NCBI GenBank assembly: GCA_016840385.1
Contig: JAEOSL010000052.1
Coordinates: 1-22,603, forward strand
DNA: 22,603 bases
Origin: Candidatus Thorarchaeota archaeon
GTDB taxonomy: Archaea > Asgardarchaeota > Thorarchaeia > Thorarchaeales > Thorarchaeaceae
Direction: 5' to 3'
Part shown: positions 1 to 7,100 of the stretch, piece by piece
Numbering within the stretch: position 1 is the stretch's first letter
Layout: every line of letters starts with the position of its first letter
Made by a program: the position numbers and the translations under genes
The notes under the pieces: model-generated
The model's database searches: none
Told to the model about the DNA's origin: nothing
The model's input: the letters and a program-made list of their open reading frames with translations, nothing else

Positions 1-491
1 ACCTGAAGGTCTTCAATATCCGCCAGGACACACTGCACAAGGCGACGACCTATCTTGCCAAGAGCCACGGTAAGGTAGTGATCGAGGACCTGTTAGTGTC
101 CGGGCTGCTGAAGAACCGAAGGCTTGCAAGAGTCATAGCTGATGTGGGATTCTATGAGTTCAGACGACAGCTGGAGTACAAGTGTGGGTGGTACGGTTCT
201 GAGCTTGTTGTTGTATCAAGGACCTTTCCTTCATCGAAGATGTGTTCACAGTGTGGGTACAGAAAGAAGGATCTTGCTCTATCAGAGAGGGAGTATCAGT
301 GTGAACAGTGTGGGTTTGAGATTGATAGGGATCTCAATGCTGCACTGAATCTGGTCGCCGTCAGTTTGCCGGAGACTGAAAACGCCTGCGGAGAGGAAGT
401 AAGACGTCGCAAATCTTCCGAGATTTGCAATGCAGCCTCGATGAAACAGGAACCGAACATCATCCCGGACTCGATGTCCAGGAATGTCTAG
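1..491 (+). CDS. tnpB: TnpB-family RNA-guided nuclease (IS200/IS605 OrfB), 5'-truncated by window edge
   Basis: The reading frame is open from base 3 and enters from outside the window, so the N-terminal part (helical domain and first RuvC segment) is not visible. What remains is the end of a TnpB protein. It has the RuvC-II acidic motif in VVIEDL, then SSKMCSQCG and CEQCG forming a four-cysteine zinc ribbon, then DRDLNAALN carrying the last RuvC aspartate. TnpB proteins are nucleases guided by an omega-RNA made from the 3' end of the element. The tail after the RuvC core (ending KQEPN...) looks like the typical low-complexity tail reading into the transposon right end, and contains a perfect hairpin (409-428). 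No TnpA transposase is visible; it could lie upstream. Catalytic residues in the visible part are intact, so this is not obviously a decayed copy. Confidence 0.93.
   Translation, partial: LKVFNIRQDTLHKATTYLAKSHGKVVIEDLLVSGLLKNRRLARVIADVGFYEFRRQLEYKCGWYGSELVVVSRTFPSSKMCSQCGYRKKDLALSEREYQCEQCGFEIDRDLNAALNLVAVSLPETENACGEEVRRRKSSEICNAASMKQEPNIIPDSMSRNV
409..428 (+). repeat. Perfect hairpin in the tnpB 3' end (right-end / omega-RNA candidate)
   Basis: GCAAATCT at 409-416 and AGATTTGC at 421-428 pair perfectly over 8 bp with a TCCG tetraloop. The hairpin lies inside the last 30 codons of tnpB. IS200/IS605 elements carry subterminal hairpins recognised by TnpA, and TnpB guide RNAs overlap the gene's 3' end, so this is the natural place for such a structure. 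Which of the two roles applies cannot be told from one copy. The exact right end of the element was not located. Confidence 0.6.
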
Positions 492-1678: not shown

Positions 1679-1780
1679 ATGGCTCTAACAACTAACTCCC
1701 GAACCAAGTCCGCACAGAAGAAGAAGCGCAACGTATCTGCCGATGCTGTTGCTTATGCTTTCATGACCTTCGTGAGGTAA
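1679..1780 (+). CDS. Micro-ORF 1 (33 aa), first of four before the MFS exporter
   Basis: ATG 1679 to TAA 1778-1780. The peptide begins MALTTNSRTKSAQKKKRN, is strongly basic in its middle (KKKR at 14-17), and ends VSADAVAYAFMTFVR. The tail resembles that of micro-ORF 4 (ISTEAIARLYFRR): [VI]-S-[AT]-[DE]-A-[VI]-A followed by aromatic residues and a final Arg; both also begin Met-Ala-Leu. This likeness, and the tight chain of SD-preceded ORFs after it, are the reasons to believe it is translated. The ATG is about 10 nt from the predicted transcription start. No signal peptide is visible and no known family is recognised. It may be an exported peptide, a regulatory leader peptide, or a small functional protein. 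Confidence 0.55.
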   Translation: MALTTNSRTKSAQKKKRNVSADAVAYAFMTFVR

Positions 1781-1785
1781 TTCTA

Positions 1786-1905
1786 ATGAAACATTCTGAG
1801 CGACTGATCACTTGGCAGCTCTCTGAGACCGATAGCTGGTCACAGAGTGGTCATAGTTACGGTCAGTCCGTCTCAGAAATACCATATCATGTGACCAACG
1901 TATAG
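1786..1905 (+). CDS. Micro-ORF 2 (39 aa)
   Basis: ATG 1786 to TAG 1903-1905, 5 nt after micro-ORF 1. GAGGT at 1774-1778, in the last codons of micro-ORF 1, gives a Shine-Dalgarno with 7 nt spacing. The peptide starts MKHSERLITWQLSETDSW and continues with a Ser/Gln/Gly-rich stretch (SQSGHSYGQSVSE); it is polar, with two Trp and no hydrophobic segment. It shows no clear similarity to micro-ORFs 1 and 4. An 8-bp inverted repeat (1822-1829 with 1870-1877) lies within it and could form an RNA stem. Function unknown. Confidence 0.5.
   Translation: MKHSERLITWQLSETDSWSQSGHSYGQSVSEIPYHVTNV
1822..1877 (+). repeat. Inverted repeat inside micro-ORF 2, possible attenuator stem
   Basis: TCTGAGAC at 1822-1829 is the exact reverse complement of GTCTCAGA at 1870-1877. 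After one C-C mismatch the pairing continues for about three more base pairs inward (1831-1833 with 1866-1868), leaving a loop of about 32 nt. In a translated leader, such a stem could be opened or allowed to form by ribosome position. The long loop makes this uncertain, and chance cannot be excluded. Confidence 0.3.
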
Positions 1906-1918
1906 GAGATTGTGACTA

Positions 1919-2035
1919 ATGATGACTGTAAACGATAATTCTCGATTGATTCGCATGACAATGGAAAACAGACACATCAATGTACAAACTTCTGAGCTGT
2001 TGGCACTTTCTAACCATTCAACAATGAGGTGCTAA
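1919..2035 (+). CDS. Micro-ORF 3 (38 aa)
   Basis: ATG 1919 to TAA 2033-2035, 13 nt after micro-ORF 2. GGAG at 1905-1908 overlaps the preceding stop codon and gives an SD spacing of 10 nt. A second ATG follows directly at 1922. The peptide starts MMTVNDNSRLIRMTMENR, carries five Met after the two initial ones or alternative start, and ends in Met-Arg-Cys. It is polar and has no recognised domain. A faint (S)RLI similarity to micro-ORF 2 (SERLI) is too short to count as homology. Function unknown. Confidence 0.48.
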   Translation: MMTVNDNSRLIRMTMENRHINVQTSELLALSNHSTMRC

Positions 2036-2036
2036 A

Positions 2037-2135
2037 ATGGCATTAGCAAAAATCAATCCCAAACCCCGTAAATTGAACATAGACAATCCCAAGATTTCCA
2101 CCGAGGCGATTGCAAGGCTTTACTTCAGGAGATAA
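2037..2135 (+). CDS. Micro-ORF 4 (32 aa), similar to micro-ORF 1
   Basis: ATG 2037 to TAA 2133-2135, starting one base after the stop of micro-ORF 3. GAGGTG at 2026-2031 is a strong Shine-Dalgarno 5 nt from the ATG. The peptide starts MALAKINPKPRKLNID, is basic and proline-containing, and ends ISTEAIARLYFRR, matching the VSADAVA...FVR tail of micro-ORF 1 position by position through the [VI]S[AT][DE]A[VI]A core. A 6-bp inverted repeat (2030-2035 with 2043-2048) places its start codon in a small hairpin loop, which could modulate initiation. Its end carries the SD of the MFS gene (AGGAG, 2127-2131). Confidence 0.55.
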   Translation: MALAKINPKPRKLNIDNPKISTEAIARLYFRR

Positions 2136-2140
2136 ATAGA

Positions 2141-3484
2141 GTGACTGAAGTTGTAACTGCTGATGAAACTGAGAAAAAGACCGAGACCAAGGGTTTCAGT
2201 ACAGTACTTGCTCATCGTGATTTTGCTCGACTCTGGTCTGGGCAGCTTGTTGCAAACGTTGGTAGAGCAATTTGCTCACTTGCTTTGATGTTCTTTGCAT
2301 TTGATCTCACAGGTTCTGCAATGGCAATGGCTATTCTTGCAATGGTTCAAACTATACCTATTGTATTGTTTGCTGGCTTTGTTGGAGTCTATGTTGATCA
2401 ATGGAATCGAAAGAAGATTATGGTTGCATCTGACATTTTACGTGCAATAGCAATTGTGCTAATTCCTCTCACTATCTATTTCCCTACATTCTTACCTACT
2501 ATCTATTGGGTGTACATTCTCACATTTATCTGGGCAACTGGTAACGCCTGGTTCTTTCCTGCAAGGAGTGCATCAATCCCCAATCTAGTTGAAGGCGACG
2601 AATTAGTCGCTGCAAACTCCCTTTCACAGATGACTTTCCAAGTAGTTCAGTTAGTTGTTCCTCCTGTTGGAGGTATTCTTGTTGCCCTCCTTGCCCCCGA
2701 TTACTTCCTTGCCTTTGCAATCACAGCAATGACCTTCGTACTCTCTGCAATTGCACTCCAGGGTATCAAGACAGATTTGACTCCCTCTCGCAATGATCTC
2801 GACAAGGAATCTTTACGCTCACAGATAATTGAAGGTGGTAGATTCGTTATTGCTAATGCGATTCTATCATTCCTCTTTGTCTTTGCAATGATGCTTGCAT
2901 TCTCCTCTGGAATCCTCAATGCTCTCCTCATGCCATACTTTGAAGGCGAGTTAGGATTGGGCTCTCTACAGATTGGACTTGTTCTGAGCGCAGGAGCTGC
3001 AACTGGTGCTGTCACTGCTATCTACTTCAGCAGGAAGAAGAACATAAACAAACCCCTATACATTGTAGCAACTGCAGGTCTTCTTGCTGGGTTTGCTATC
3101 TTTGCTATGGTCATTGCCTTTGACCTAGTTACTGTGATGTTATCATGGGCTATGATTGGAGCTGTTGATGTAATGTTGAATATTCCACTGGTTGTACTCA
3201 TGCAGGAACTAGTTTCTGATGAGCTACGAGGTCGTGTCTTTGCACTACTCAATGTCGCCTTCACTGCTGTCCAAGTTGTTGGAATGGGCATAGGTGGAGT
3301 GTGGGCTGAGTCTGTTGGATCAACCGGTCCTCCATTAATTGGTGCAGCAATCGCTATGGTAATTGTAGCCCTCATCGGCTTTGCAGCCATCTCAATCTTC
3401 AAACTACACTCTCGTCTTCCTGAGAAGAAAGTTGAGTCTGAAGAAGAAGAGGAGCAACTAGCCACTATTGAGATTTCCACATAA
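2141..3484 (+). CDS. MFS efflux transporter (MFS_3/EntS-MefA-like)
   Basis: 447 residues with twelve predicted membrane helices, a usual MFS length. The N-terminal half starts with FARLWSGQLVANVGRAI and carries the motif-A-like loop GVYVDQWNRKKIMVASDI between helices 2 and 3 (about residues 81-98), then the PARSASIPNLV segment typical of the enterobactin-exporter/macrolide-efflux branch of MFS. The second half repeats the pattern (ELRGRVFALLN at about 361-371). The C-terminus ends in an acidic tail (ESEEEEEQ). Members of this branch are proton-driven exporters of siderophores, macrolides or other amphipathic compounds; the substrate here is unknown. The GTG start at 2141 has AGGAG at 2127-2131 inside micro-ORF 4, so translation is probably coupled to the four micro-ORFs. 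Confidence 0.85.
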   Translation: MTEVVTADETEKKTETKGFSTVLAHRDFARLWSGQLVANVGRAICSLALMFFAFDLTGSAMAMAILAMVQTIPIVLFAGFVGVYVDQWNRKKIMVASDILRAIAIVLIPLTIYFPTFLPTIYWVYILTFIWATGNAWFFPARSASIPNLVEGDELVAANSLSQMTFQVVQLVVPPVGGILVALLAPDYFLAFAITAMTFVLSAIALQGIKTDLTPSRNDLDKESLRSQIIEGGRFVIANAILSFLFVFAMMLAFSSGILNALLMPYFEGELGLGSLQIGLVLSAGAATGAVTAIYFSRKKNINKPLYIVATAGLLAGFAIFAMVIAFDLVTVMLSWAMIGAVDVMLNIPLVVLMQELVSDELRGRVFALLNVAFTAVQVVGMGIGGVWAESVGSTGPPLIGAAIAMVIVALIGFAAISIFKLHSRLPEKKVESEEEEEQLATIEIST

Positions 3485-3505: not shown

Positions 3506-4159
3506 TCAGGTTGCATCTAGCACCTGGGGTCTCCATATCTCCCTTGTAACTGGATTGTAGAGTAGCCTACCTCGTGATACAAGGATGATTACGTAGAGGA
3601 AGTGTTTCAGAAAAACATCGAACTCATCACTTTCAACTATGTCATCAAAAATCACTTTGCCATCCAAAGGGATCGTTTTGATAAATCTATCCAAGTCTTC
3701 GATGAAGACAGAGTCTTCAGTATCGAGTGCGAATCCATTTGGAAGTGGAGTCATTTCTGGTATCTTGTCTTCAGGAGGTTCTTTCGATAATGCTTCAATG
3801 AGTTGTACAACTCGCGCTAGAGACCCTCCCAGCGATGCGTGTTCAAGATGTCCAATAGTAATTGGTTGCTTCTGAACAAGAAGTCGAGCCAGCTGCTTTG
3901 TTGATTTTCCTTTCAGACGAGCAACATATACCTCTGGAGATGCAAGGACTCGTGCAAGTTCTTGAACTCGATTTACTTTGGCACTAAGAACCTCATTCAA
4001 CATCTCGTCTATATCCAATCTGGTATCAAGTTTCTCTGCTAGCTCCTGTAACTCTCGATAGGGTTCAGTTAGTCTTAACTCAAGAGGATCAATATCGCCT
4101 GATCGAGCTGCCTGCAAAATCTCATAGACCTTTTCCGCAAGACTCTGGTTCTCAGCCAT
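3506..4159 (-). CDS. scpA: Kleisin ScpA, SMC partner
   Basis: 217 residues, MAENQSLAEKVYEILQAARS at the start. The first part (about 5-60) resembles the ScpA N-terminal helical domain with a DPLELRL segment; the end (DEFDVFLKHFLYVIILVSRG, then LYNPVTREIWRP) is the winged-helix region that binds the SMC head. ScpA closes the SMC ring between the two ATPase heads. I chose ATG 4159 rather than the longer frame starting at 4258: it follows AGGAGG with 9 nt spacing, begins with a ScpA-like sequence, and lies 13 nt after the smc stop, whereas the longer form would overlap smc by 86 nt. It converges with the MFS gene (21-bp gap). No terminator is evident between them. Confidence 0.82.
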   Translation of the reverse strand: MAENQSLAEKVYEILQAARSGDIDPLELRLTEPYRELQELAEKLDTRLDIDEMLNEVLSAKVNRVQELARVLASPEVYVARLKGKSTKQLARLLVQKQPITIGHLEHASLGGSLARVVQLIEALSKEPPEDKIPEMTPLPNGFALDTEDSVFIEDLDRFIKTIPLDGKVIFDDIVESDEFDVFLKHFLYVIILVSRGRLLYNPVTREIWRPQVLDAT

Positions 4160-4172
4160 TTCATATTTCCTC

Positions 4173-7100
4173 CTACTGTCCTTTGAACTTAGGACTCTCA
4201 ATAATGACTGATGGTTCAGTTCCATTGGGTGAAACGACACCCAGTATCTTGTCCGCATGTTTCAGAAGATGTGTACTCTTAGCAGGTGTAAGAAGAACGA
4301 ACTGACTTCTTCGTGATGCGTCGTGTAATAATCTGCTAACAAGTTCGGTGTTTGTTGCATCTAGAAATGTGTCCACTTCATCTAGAATGTATACAGGAGC
4401 TGGATTGAATCTTTGTAATGCTAGGATGAGTGAAATTGCAATGAGTGACCTCTCACCACCTGAACCTGCGCTAATAGCCCCAAACCCTTCTGCCTTAATT
4501 CTTGTTTTGAACTCGACACCATAGTCACCACTACGCATGGCTAATTCAAATCGTACGCTTCCTGGGAATTGTACACTTCCAAGAACCTCATTCACACGCC
4601 TCTCGACCTTTCGAAGAGTTTCGTTCATTCCATTATGATATTGTTCACGGATACTCTTGACTGCAGATTCTGCTTCATCCAGTTCTTCCTTAAGCTCAGT
4701 AACTCTCTCAACAAGTGTTACTATACGTCCTTTGAGTTGTGTTTCAGTGTGAGCAACACTTTCAGAAACATCTTGATAATCATCTAGAATATGCCTTAGT
4801 TTAACAAGTTCATTTCTAACAACATCCAGCGGTCTCAGAATTTTGGGTCGTGTAAGTCCTTCAAGATCTACTTGTAAATTCTCTAGCTCATACTCCATGT
4901 TGGTCAGCTGTCTCTTTGATTGAAGAACCTGAAGTTTACGTTCCTTGATCATAAGATTGAGTTCTACCATTCTACTGCTGAGAGACCTATTTGTTTCTCT
5001 CAGAGTTGCAAGATCCTCAAGAAGCGTTGTTCGGTTGCTATGTGTCTGCTCTTGACTTTCTTTCATGACTTCAATTTTCTCTAGGATTTCTGAAGTGGCA
5101 TTCTTCGATTCCTTGATCTCTTTTCGTAATTCTTGCAGACTATTGGATAACATATCAACATTTTCTGCTATCCTCTTCAAATCCTGACGTTTGATTTCTT
5201 CATCTCTCTCTGCTGCATTTGCATTACTATCGATTCTTGTGAGTTCTGTCTGCAAACGCCTGTGTTTAATCCTAAGTGCTGAATCTTGTCCTACCAATCT
5301 ACTTCGTTCTGGAGGTTGAGTGTTATCCAGTTTTCGAAGACTCCTCTCTGCTTTCCCTAAATCTAGTTGAAGTACCTTCAGCTCGTCATCAAGAGCAACA
5401 ATTCGCTCTTCCTGCTCTGGTAGATTTTCAAGTAACTTCTTTCTCCTCTCCCAGCTTCCACCCCATCGAGTCATCTGGCTAAGAAGATCAAGAATCTCCT
5501 CGCGTTGATTCGTAAGAGAATCCAGATTGGTCATTGTATCAGTTACTTTTTTGCGTGAAATTGTGAGTTCCTTTGTTGCTCTTGTGAGCCTATCCTGGAG
5601 TGGTGCAGTTGAAACCATTCCAGAGGGTACTAATTTTGGATTACTGACTATCTTCCCATCTTCTGGAACAATGACATATCCATCAAGAGAAACTGCTCTG
5701 AGATTCTCTTTTGTTGCAAGTCTTGTAGCTGTCCTTGTTGTTTTGGTTAGTACGAAATCTCCAATTGCTCTCTGTAGCAATTGCTGGGTTTCGGGATCAA
5801 CATTGAGGTTATCCCAGAGCCATCCCTCTATTCCAGATGAGCTTTTGAGTGTGGGTCTCTCGATTGATTGTCCTGCATCTTTCAATAGGATGAGTGGAGA
5901 AGGCGCATCAGAGTTGTCACGTAATTTCTGAAGAATTTGGAAATCTGTTTCTTCTGTAACGATGAAAGCAAAAGCAAGATTCTCTGAGAGGACTGCCTCT
6001 ACTGCAGTTGCAATAGAATCATCAGCACTGAATACTTCAATCAATGGACCTGTAACTGATTCCAGCTTGTGCTCTGCAATTGCATCCTTCAATTCACGTA
6101 CGCTTTCAGGAACTCTCTTTGAGGTTTCTGACAATCGTACATTTAGATCATCAATCTCTTTCTGCAGGGTTGAGAGGAGACTGCTCTGTCTAAATCGTTC
6201 TTCATTGAGTGCAGAAATCTCTCTCTCAAGCTGGCTTTTTTGACGAGTCAATTCCTTTTCGTCAGATTTCTCCATAACTGTCCAGACATGTGACCATTTG
6301 CTTTCTATGGCTTGAAGTTCTGCTCCCTCAACTTGAACTCTCTCTCTTACACTTCTGAGGAGTAAATCCTTTCCTTCACTCTCTGCTTGAAGTGCTTTGT
6401 ATCTGCCATGCGTTTCTGCTCTCTTCGTATTCCATTCTGCAAACGCTTCGAGTTCATCTCGAATTCTAGTCCGCTCTTCTTCTATCTCTTGGAGTTCCAC
6501 ACGAAACTGTCTTTGTTTCTCCATAGTAGATTCTTTGGTAGAACTAATTCGTTCGATGTCTTCTTGGAGTTTTTCTTTTCGTCTCTTCTCCGAGTTGACT
6601 TGCTTCTCTAACTCGCGAAGTTCGCTAACCTGTTGTTTTGAACTACCTTCTAATCGTGTAAGATTTCTTTCCTCTTCCTCAATCTTCGCATCGATTCTAC
6701 CTATTTCTACTTGAAGATTAGATAGTGCAGAATTTAGCTCATCATTTTCAGACTCATTTTCAGCAATGCTGGATTGTATTTCTTTCTGTTCATCGAGAAT
6801 AGAAACAAGACCTGATTCCTTTCCTTCAATCTCATCCTTGACACTCTTCACCTTCTCAGTGATGTCGTCAAATGATGCCCATTTCAGATCGTGCTCAAGG
6901 GTTTTCTCTTGTTCGAGAAGAGATCTCTTTCTGTCCAATCTATCAAGGTCATGTTTGAGGAGCTCTAGTTCACGCTCCACTGATTTAGATTCAGTAAGTG
7001 CGGCTTCCAACCTGTGACGACTTTGAATAACCTCGGTTTCTTGAATGACAATCCTATCTCTTAGCCCATCAAGACCAGTTCCTTCTTCCACAAGACGTCT

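Follow-up and report, generated by a model that had tools for sequence, protein, structure and literature searches.

The stretch of DNA considered here, referred to as the window, comprises 22,603 nucleotides (nt) of contig JAEOSL010000052.1 from a Candidatus Thorarchaeota archaeon, and the system in question is a chain of four very small open reading frames (ORFs) that leads from a TATA box into a gene for an exporter of the major facilitator superfamily (MFS). The parts of this chain are listed below, with E values from a hidden Markov model (HMM) of the small peptides for ORF1, ORF3 and ORF4 and from Pfam for the exporter.

1593–1621, + strand: P1 operator, with GTCACA at 1593–1598, TGTGAC at 1602–1607 and TGTGACC at 1615–1621; kept across the MFS loci
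1639–1647, + strand: P1 TATA box, TATATATAC in the sequence; kept in the aligned loci
1679–1780, + strand: ORF1, type I micro-peptide of 33 aa, net charge +6 (E 4e-14)
1786–1905, + strand: ORF2, 39 codons, overlying the P2 element; probably no conserved product
1837–1897, + strand: P2 element, with TGGTCAC at 1837–1843, TGGTCA at 1848–1853, GGTCA at 1861–1865, CATATC at 1883–1888 and TGTGACCA at 1890–1897
1919–2035, + strand: ORF3, diverged micro-peptide of 38 aa (E 9.8e-11, the sequence itself being in the training set)
2037–2135, + strand: ORF4, type II micro-peptide of 32 aa, net charge +6 (E 2e-14)
2141–3484, + strand: MFS exporter of the DHA3 type, with a GTG start at 2141 (MFS_1 1.1e-35, MFS_3 1.2e-30)

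An earlier note on this DNA had described four micro-ORFs of 33, 39, 38 and 32 codons, and its coordinates, gaps, Shine–Dalgarno sites and TATA box (TATATATA at 1639–1646) were all recovered on re-reading. Along the chain ORF1–ORF2–ORF3–ORF4–MFS the gaps in the window sequence are 5, 13, 1 and 5 nt, and the starts of ORF2, ORF3, ORF4 and the MFS gene are preceded by the Shine–Dalgarno words GAGGT, GGAG, GAGGTG and AGGAG, respectively, the last of which sits in the closing codons of ORF4 (AGG AGA TAA). With a chain defined as ATG ORFs of at least 30 codons separated by gaps of at most 15 nt, a four-ORF chain appeared in none of 5000 dinucleotide shuffles of 1640–2140 and a three-ORF chain in eight, in keeping with the note's view that the arrangement is not due to chance. 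The layout also supports its suggestion that the ORFs are arranged for coupled translation.

The MFS gene product scores above the Pfam cut-offs for both MFS_3 (107 bits, cut-off 27) and MFS_1 (123.6 bits, cut-off 33.4) and reaches 216 bits with TIGR00900, under the cut-off of 319.6. The NCBIfam model of the Mef macrolide exporter, Mef(A), gave 74.3 bits against a cut-off of 675, and the nearest named proteins come from Candidatus Thorarchaeota. Comparable MFS loci were drawn from a scan of genome contigs (17) and from the class genomes (L033, L034 and L035). The peptide HMM detects micro-ORFs upstream of 20 MFS_3-type loci, including the window and L135, where the MFS gene is internally deleted; at L035 only a diverged ORF unreported by the HMM was seen, and L014 starts within the MFS gene and is not judgeable. 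The layout of short co-directional ORFs upstream of a resistance-type gene is thereby present at the window and at 19 further MFS_3-type loci. Such a layout is what would be expected of cis-acting leader peptides, one of two models put forward in the earlier note, in which drug-dependent ribosome stalling or re-initiation on the micro-ORFs would set exporter synthesis. This model is favoured by the tight spacing (in ten of the 20 MFS_3-type loci, among them the window, the MFS start lies 5 nt past the last micro-ORF), the location of the MFS gene's Shine–Dalgarno sequence inside ORF4, the drug-type homology of the MFS protein, the related layouts at further MFS genes and a conserved C-terminal motif in the peptides.

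By their sequences, ORF1, ORF3 and ORF4 are members of one unrecognised micro-peptide family: they are mutually related, ORF3 of the window's clade being the most diverged. The N-terminus is mostly MALTTN or MALAK, the middle is variable and basic, and the C-terminus follows STDAxAYAYxTVR or STEAIAxAYFRR; in several relatives ORF3 ends in AYAYxTVRR, as in type I. The peptides are cationic, with a mean net charge of about +5. In two clades of five genomes each, the ratio of nonsynonymous to synonymous substitution rates (dN/dS) is 0.40 and 0.34 for ORF1 (1.1–2.5 in its other frames), 0.26 and 0.29 for ORF3 and 0.16 and 0.16 for ORF4, the other two frames of these three ORFs spanning 0.78–2.5, and, pooled by type, the type I and type II peptides give 0.45 and 0.28, respectively (1.1–1.5 in the other frames), figures to be read with the reservation that the pairs are mutually non-independent and the peptides short. 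Frameshifts or a lack of conservation in relatives, which the earlier note had named as grounds for abandoning the micro-ORFs, were looked for: ORF1, ORF3 and ORF4 keep both frame and selection, and conservation stands for these three and fails for ORF2, which is frame-shifted in five relatives. A known-family search with 35 members of the family gave no Pfam or PHROGs match at 0.05 and no PDB match at 1, and the window's four ORFs had no NCBIfam match at 1; the lone sub-threshold Pfam match was to CzcE on ORF3 (13.6 bits versus 30). AlphaFold2 modelling of ORF1 from 35 rows produced one helix (pLDDT 70, pTM 0.26) and was uninformative.

The ORF2 region makes better sense as a regulatory DNA element, P2, a putative second operator/promoter that happens to be open in one frame. 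The ORF2 frame is kept in nine loci (the window, L001, L002, L003, L005, L006, L007, L008 and L135) and shifted in five (L004, L009, L010, L013 and L016), in which the DNA element is retained as three TGGTCA-like repeats at a spacing of 11–12 nt together with the CATATCcTGTGACCA block. The dN/dS of ORF2 in clade A is 0.30, with a synonymous rate that is low as well, and ORF2 may be translated in that clade. P2 is found by pattern in 28 loci, of which 26 have an MFS match (the other two are L096 and L142), it occurs with MFS genes of more than one type and its half-sites barely vary among loci. In the 17 scorable cases the CATAT of P2 starts 36 or 39 nt ahead of the next detected micro-ORF; for comparison, the P1 TATA box starts 40 nt ahead of ORF1 in the window. 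A version of P2 lies directly upstream of the first micro-ORF in L034 and L035, and L011, L012, L015, L017 and L033 are without P2, having P1 only and one or two detected micro-ORFs.

At E 1, a profile built from 35 family peptides finds matches in each of the 47 class genomes; at 1e-3 it does so in 45 of 227 Asgard genomes, all 45 of them within the class's 47 and none among the other 180; the individual peptide matches from the class-wide and Asgard-wide searches used here are among the matches listed. Six genomes (G007–G010, G013 and G015) have weak matches only, with best E values of 4e-5 to 0.004, and four of them pass 1e-3. The P1 operator was sought independently of the peptides: TGTGACTN6TGTGACCC with at most one mismatch occurs at 123 sites in 43 of the 47 class genomes (0 to 8 per genome), compared with 16 for the reversed control. 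Each of the 69 exact sites has an ATG exactly 77 nt downstream, and a hand count assigned this ATG to a family peptide in 64 cases, to an ORF cut by the contig end in four (L155, L173, L176 and L178) and to an unrelated ORF in one (L172). In 77 of 95 cassettes the first ATG comes 76 or 77 nt after a match to a looser P1 pattern.

These 95 cassettes, which hold 202 detected family peptides, were picked by MFS homology, operator or peptide match. They draw on 80 further stretches, 76 of them with a detected peptide (all but L111, L117, L126 and L155); eight more short stretches were checked for operator sites and stand outside the cassette counts. An MFS match (tblastn) lies downstream on the same strand in 39 cassettes, two of which (L093 and L135) carry remnants; 20 matches are to the window's gene and 19 to two further types, 211–596 nt on, one example of each of these being Pfam MFS_1. 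The remaining 56 cassettes have no downstream MFS match within the stretch examined, a 39:56 split that should not be taken as an unbiased frequency, given how the cassettes were picked; some stretches stop at contig ends before any downstream gene. In 51 of the 56, no same-strand ORF of at least 120 aa starts in the first 100 nt beyond the last detected peptide.

A third small ORF, ending xEVLALEAT or similar, is found in 37 of the 56 MFS-less cassettes but is absent from all 39 that have an MFS match; it overlies a 15-bp hairpin with a T-rich tract after it. Among 35 of the 37 sequences, two-sided changes are seen in one or more sequences at seven of the 15 base pairs; the covariation score was reached by none of 500 shuffles, and 84.6% of the cells are paired versus 27–46% in slid controls. 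The control slid by −2 equally has seven two-sided pairs, but with 12 such cells versus 21 in the hairpin. The C-terminus of the third ORF is thus at least partly an RNA signal, and the hairpin is most simply read as a terminator. In some other cassettes a hairpin comes right after the stop (z about −6 in L136 and L137 and −3.8 in L092); these folds, like that at the window's ORF4–MFS junction, were compared with shuffles that preserve single-base composition only. At that junction no terminator-like fold was found, which may count against the leader-peptide model. Judged by sequence, a cassette thus tends to have one of two endings, a terminator or a continuation in the direction of an exporter.

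Loci that have lost the exporter also bear on the leader-peptide model. At L135 (genome G026) the MFS gene is without its middle, residues 1–62 and 370–444 alone matching. At L142 (G029) there is no MFS match in the 3.6 kb examined, and the convergent gene equivalent to window positions 3506–4258, which in the window comes after the MFS gene, directly follows the cassette (47.9% identity). At both loci P1 and P2 are still present, and the type I and type II ORFs are intact. At another site, L093, three detected peptides are kept and the MFS_1-type gene is down to its last ∼85 residues. This persistence of the cassette argues against leader peptides, and because over half of the examined copies have no exporter, leader-peptide control fails as a general account: a ribosome-stalling leader of the Mef/Erm/Msr type would exist only to control the next gene, which is not what is seen in the 56 MFS-less cassettes, 37 of them with the terminator-like hairpin. 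The fold of the whole leader RNA is little better than that of shuffled sequences (z −1.72, with five of 100 shuffles folding equally well). As to macrolide sensitivity, the 23S rRNA macrolide-site motif was not found in the 47 genomes, and the large-subunit rRNA model matched the last part of the gene only, in one of two genomes. Leader-peptide control may operate at the exporter loci themselves, to which extent that proposal of the earlier note survives, but as an explanation of the cassette it is unlikely.

The other model in the earlier note held that the peptides are exported by, or work with, the MFS protein. Cationic peptides upstream of exporters could be signals or antimicrobials exported by it. 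However, peptides are found in 45 of the 47 class genomes versus an MFS_3 match at 1e-60 in 20 of 47, a comparison in which genomes may be incomplete and MFS_1 types could substitute, and selection on the peptides is purifying rather than diversifying. DHA3 carriers are, moreover, known for small-molecule transport. Export of the peptides is accordingly considered very improbable; what is left of the model is that they may work with the exporter.

The best explanation of the whole, held with somewhat better than even confidence, is that these are co-regulated Thorarchaeota micro-peptide mini-operons to which an exporter can be attached as the last cistron, the micro-peptides probably being products that act in trans. 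Small cationic peptides specific to Thorarchaeota would be made from several such mini-operons per genome, transcribed under the control of a putative DNA-binding regulator acting on the common P1 operator. The peptides would be translated successively by coupled re-initiation, with later starts usually served by a Shine–Dalgarno sequence in the end of the preceding ORF. A terminator-like hairpin closes many of the cassettes, and these encode small peptides only, suggesting action of the peptides in trans. Where there is an exporter, the MFS gene would take the place of the terminator ORF as a translationally coupled last cistron and would gain P2, beneath ORF2, as a presumed second operator/promoter. 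Peptides and exporter might then respond jointly to a toxin or stress. What the sequences themselves display is the peptide family and the selection on it, the common promoter sequence, the make-up of the cassettes, the existence of exporter-less ones and the survival of cassettes that have lost the MFS gene.

Several observations weigh against this explanation, beyond the reservation already attached to the dN/dS values. In the 74 MAL-type type I ORFs, codons 2, 3 and 6 are nearly fixed synonymously (GCT in 67, CTA in 65 and AAC in 66), and the closing Arg codon is AGG in 68 of the 74 MAL-type ORF1s; part of the conserved C-terminal VR/RR is kept because the embedded Shine–Dalgarno sequence dictates AGG. 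A clear Shine–Dalgarno-like word within 18 nt upstream is present in only 75 of 111 type II and other ORFs (and in eight of 91 type I ORFs, which are mostly the first after the promoter). Genome G011 has strong peptide matches and no operator match, and among the 54 operator sites with one mismatch, not all of which were examined, several have no nearby peptide in the matches listed. Lastly, the tested neighbouring genes share no function that could be relied on: the 19 neighbouring proteins scanned include matches to desulfoferrodoxin, hemerythrin, flavodoxin, a tRNA-editing domain, hydrolases and a methyltransferase, the names of genes without a Pfam result being assigned by eye.

The fixation of the first codons and the AGG bias indicate that the start region and the last codon carry nucleic-acid signals. 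Taken with the position of P2 inside ORF2 and of the hairpin inside the third ORF, they could suggest that the cassette acts solely as DNA or RNA (promoter, re-initiation ramp and terminator) and that the peptides themselves are irrelevant. Against this, the C-terminal Ala and Tyr codons of the 74 MAL-type type I ORFs vary synonymously and the residues are kept, so that in the inner C-terminal motif it is the protein sequence that is conserved, and the dN/dS values of 0.16–0.45 are confined to the coding frame. A purely nucleic-acid role is therefore given little credence.

A more specific form of the mini-operon explanation, which falls somewhat short of an even chance, takes the peptides as effectors of a stress or toxin response in a dedicated Thorarchaeota micro-peptide regulon, with pumps recruited by replacing the third peptide. 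The unit would be a two- or three-peptide operon, present in several copies per genome under one operator, and the peptides would perhaps act on the very ribosome that translates them or on a common partner. By sequence, two cationic peptides would share the STDAxxxAYxxxR-like C-terminus and the third would end in EVLALEAT.

Among the top-ranked papers of the literature searches, none describes an archaeal system of this form, in agreement with the earlier note, and none deals with operons of small ORFs in Thorarchaeota; the searches did not extend to most subscription papers and preprints. The leaders of the streptococcal mefA-msrD operon, MefAL (eight residues) and MsrDL (six), stall in the presence of macrolide and work through transcription attenuation (PMC10314930). 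The likeness lies in short ORFs that precede resistance genes, a DHA3-type macrolide exporter being among those genes in the streptococcal case, where a single operon is under two leader ORFs (PMC10314930). Unlike MefAL and MsrDL, the ORFs described here encode 32–38 residues, belong to one conserved family and in 56 of 95 cassettes have no MFS gene to control. In Sinorhizobium meliloti the attenuator-derived leader peptide peTrpL acts in trans on multidrug efflux genes, and a small ORF product is likewise linked to efflux pumps, trans action being a presumption in the present case (PMC7298713). In contrast to bacterial peTrpL, the archaeal cassettes are multi-copy and tandem and have a shared operator. 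Re-initiation coupling through leader genes has been proposed as a general boost in bacteria, and it matches the present layout in that stop and next start are a few nt apart, so that terminating ribosomes may feed the next start (PMC4833913). Four serial ORFs and a conserved peptide family set the present chain apart from the bacterial case.

Another parallel is offered by the erythromycin-resistance mini-genes, laboratory-selected and encoding E-peptides of ∼5 residues, which are also short ORFs tied to drug resistance without a downstream target gene.

The surroundings of the chain in the window are as follows. At the window edge, 78–491 (+) encodes a C-terminal transposase piece (Cas12f1-like_TNB, 3e-25) that is presumably of the TnpB/IS605 type. 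A divergent gene at 528–1040 (−) gives weak helix-turn-helix (HTH) matches only; its homologues occur in 34 of the 47 class genomes, mostly as one match each and often beside the MFS locus. It is not favoured as the P1 regulator because it was not found in 13 of the 47 genomes, several of them with exact P1 sites, an argument that incomplete genomes weaken. Between this gene and P1 lies a membrane-protein-like ORF without a family match (1090–1593, +); in L001, L006 and L008 the HTH gene directly precedes P1. No PADLOC match was obtained for the MFS, HTH or membrane protein, and no similarity to phage records was found. A mobile-element origin of the cassettes is not favoured, as the same flanking genes recur across genomes (by eye).

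Some cassettes elsewhere have further peculiarities. L095 and L098 carry a variant without P1, with a different first peptide (an RTLDSLYYDY motif, by eye) followed by a type II ORF. L097, L106, L131 and similar loci have an extra small ORF between the last detected micro-ORF and an MFS_1-type gene, with a recurring NFGLxYxQNxDFKYxIQNNA-like pattern in AT-rich DNA. In L094, L100 and L108, which lack an MFS match, the cassette lies a few hundred nt after a same-strand desulfoferrodoxin gene, identified by Pfam for the L094 protein and by a similar start for the other two.

ORFs of ∼30 residues are usually missed by gene callers. The cassettes described here comprise a multi-copy family of ∼30-residue peptides with a shared promoter sequence, found in one Asgard class and unmatched in the domain libraries searched. 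They provide a defined group of small proteins, open to testing, in the archaeal phylum that is nearest to eukaryotes, together with the exact operator and TATA-box sequences of a putative regulon in archaea not yet in culture. What looked like an array of leader peptides would, on this explanation, turn out to be a kind of free-standing peptide operon to which exporters have become attached.

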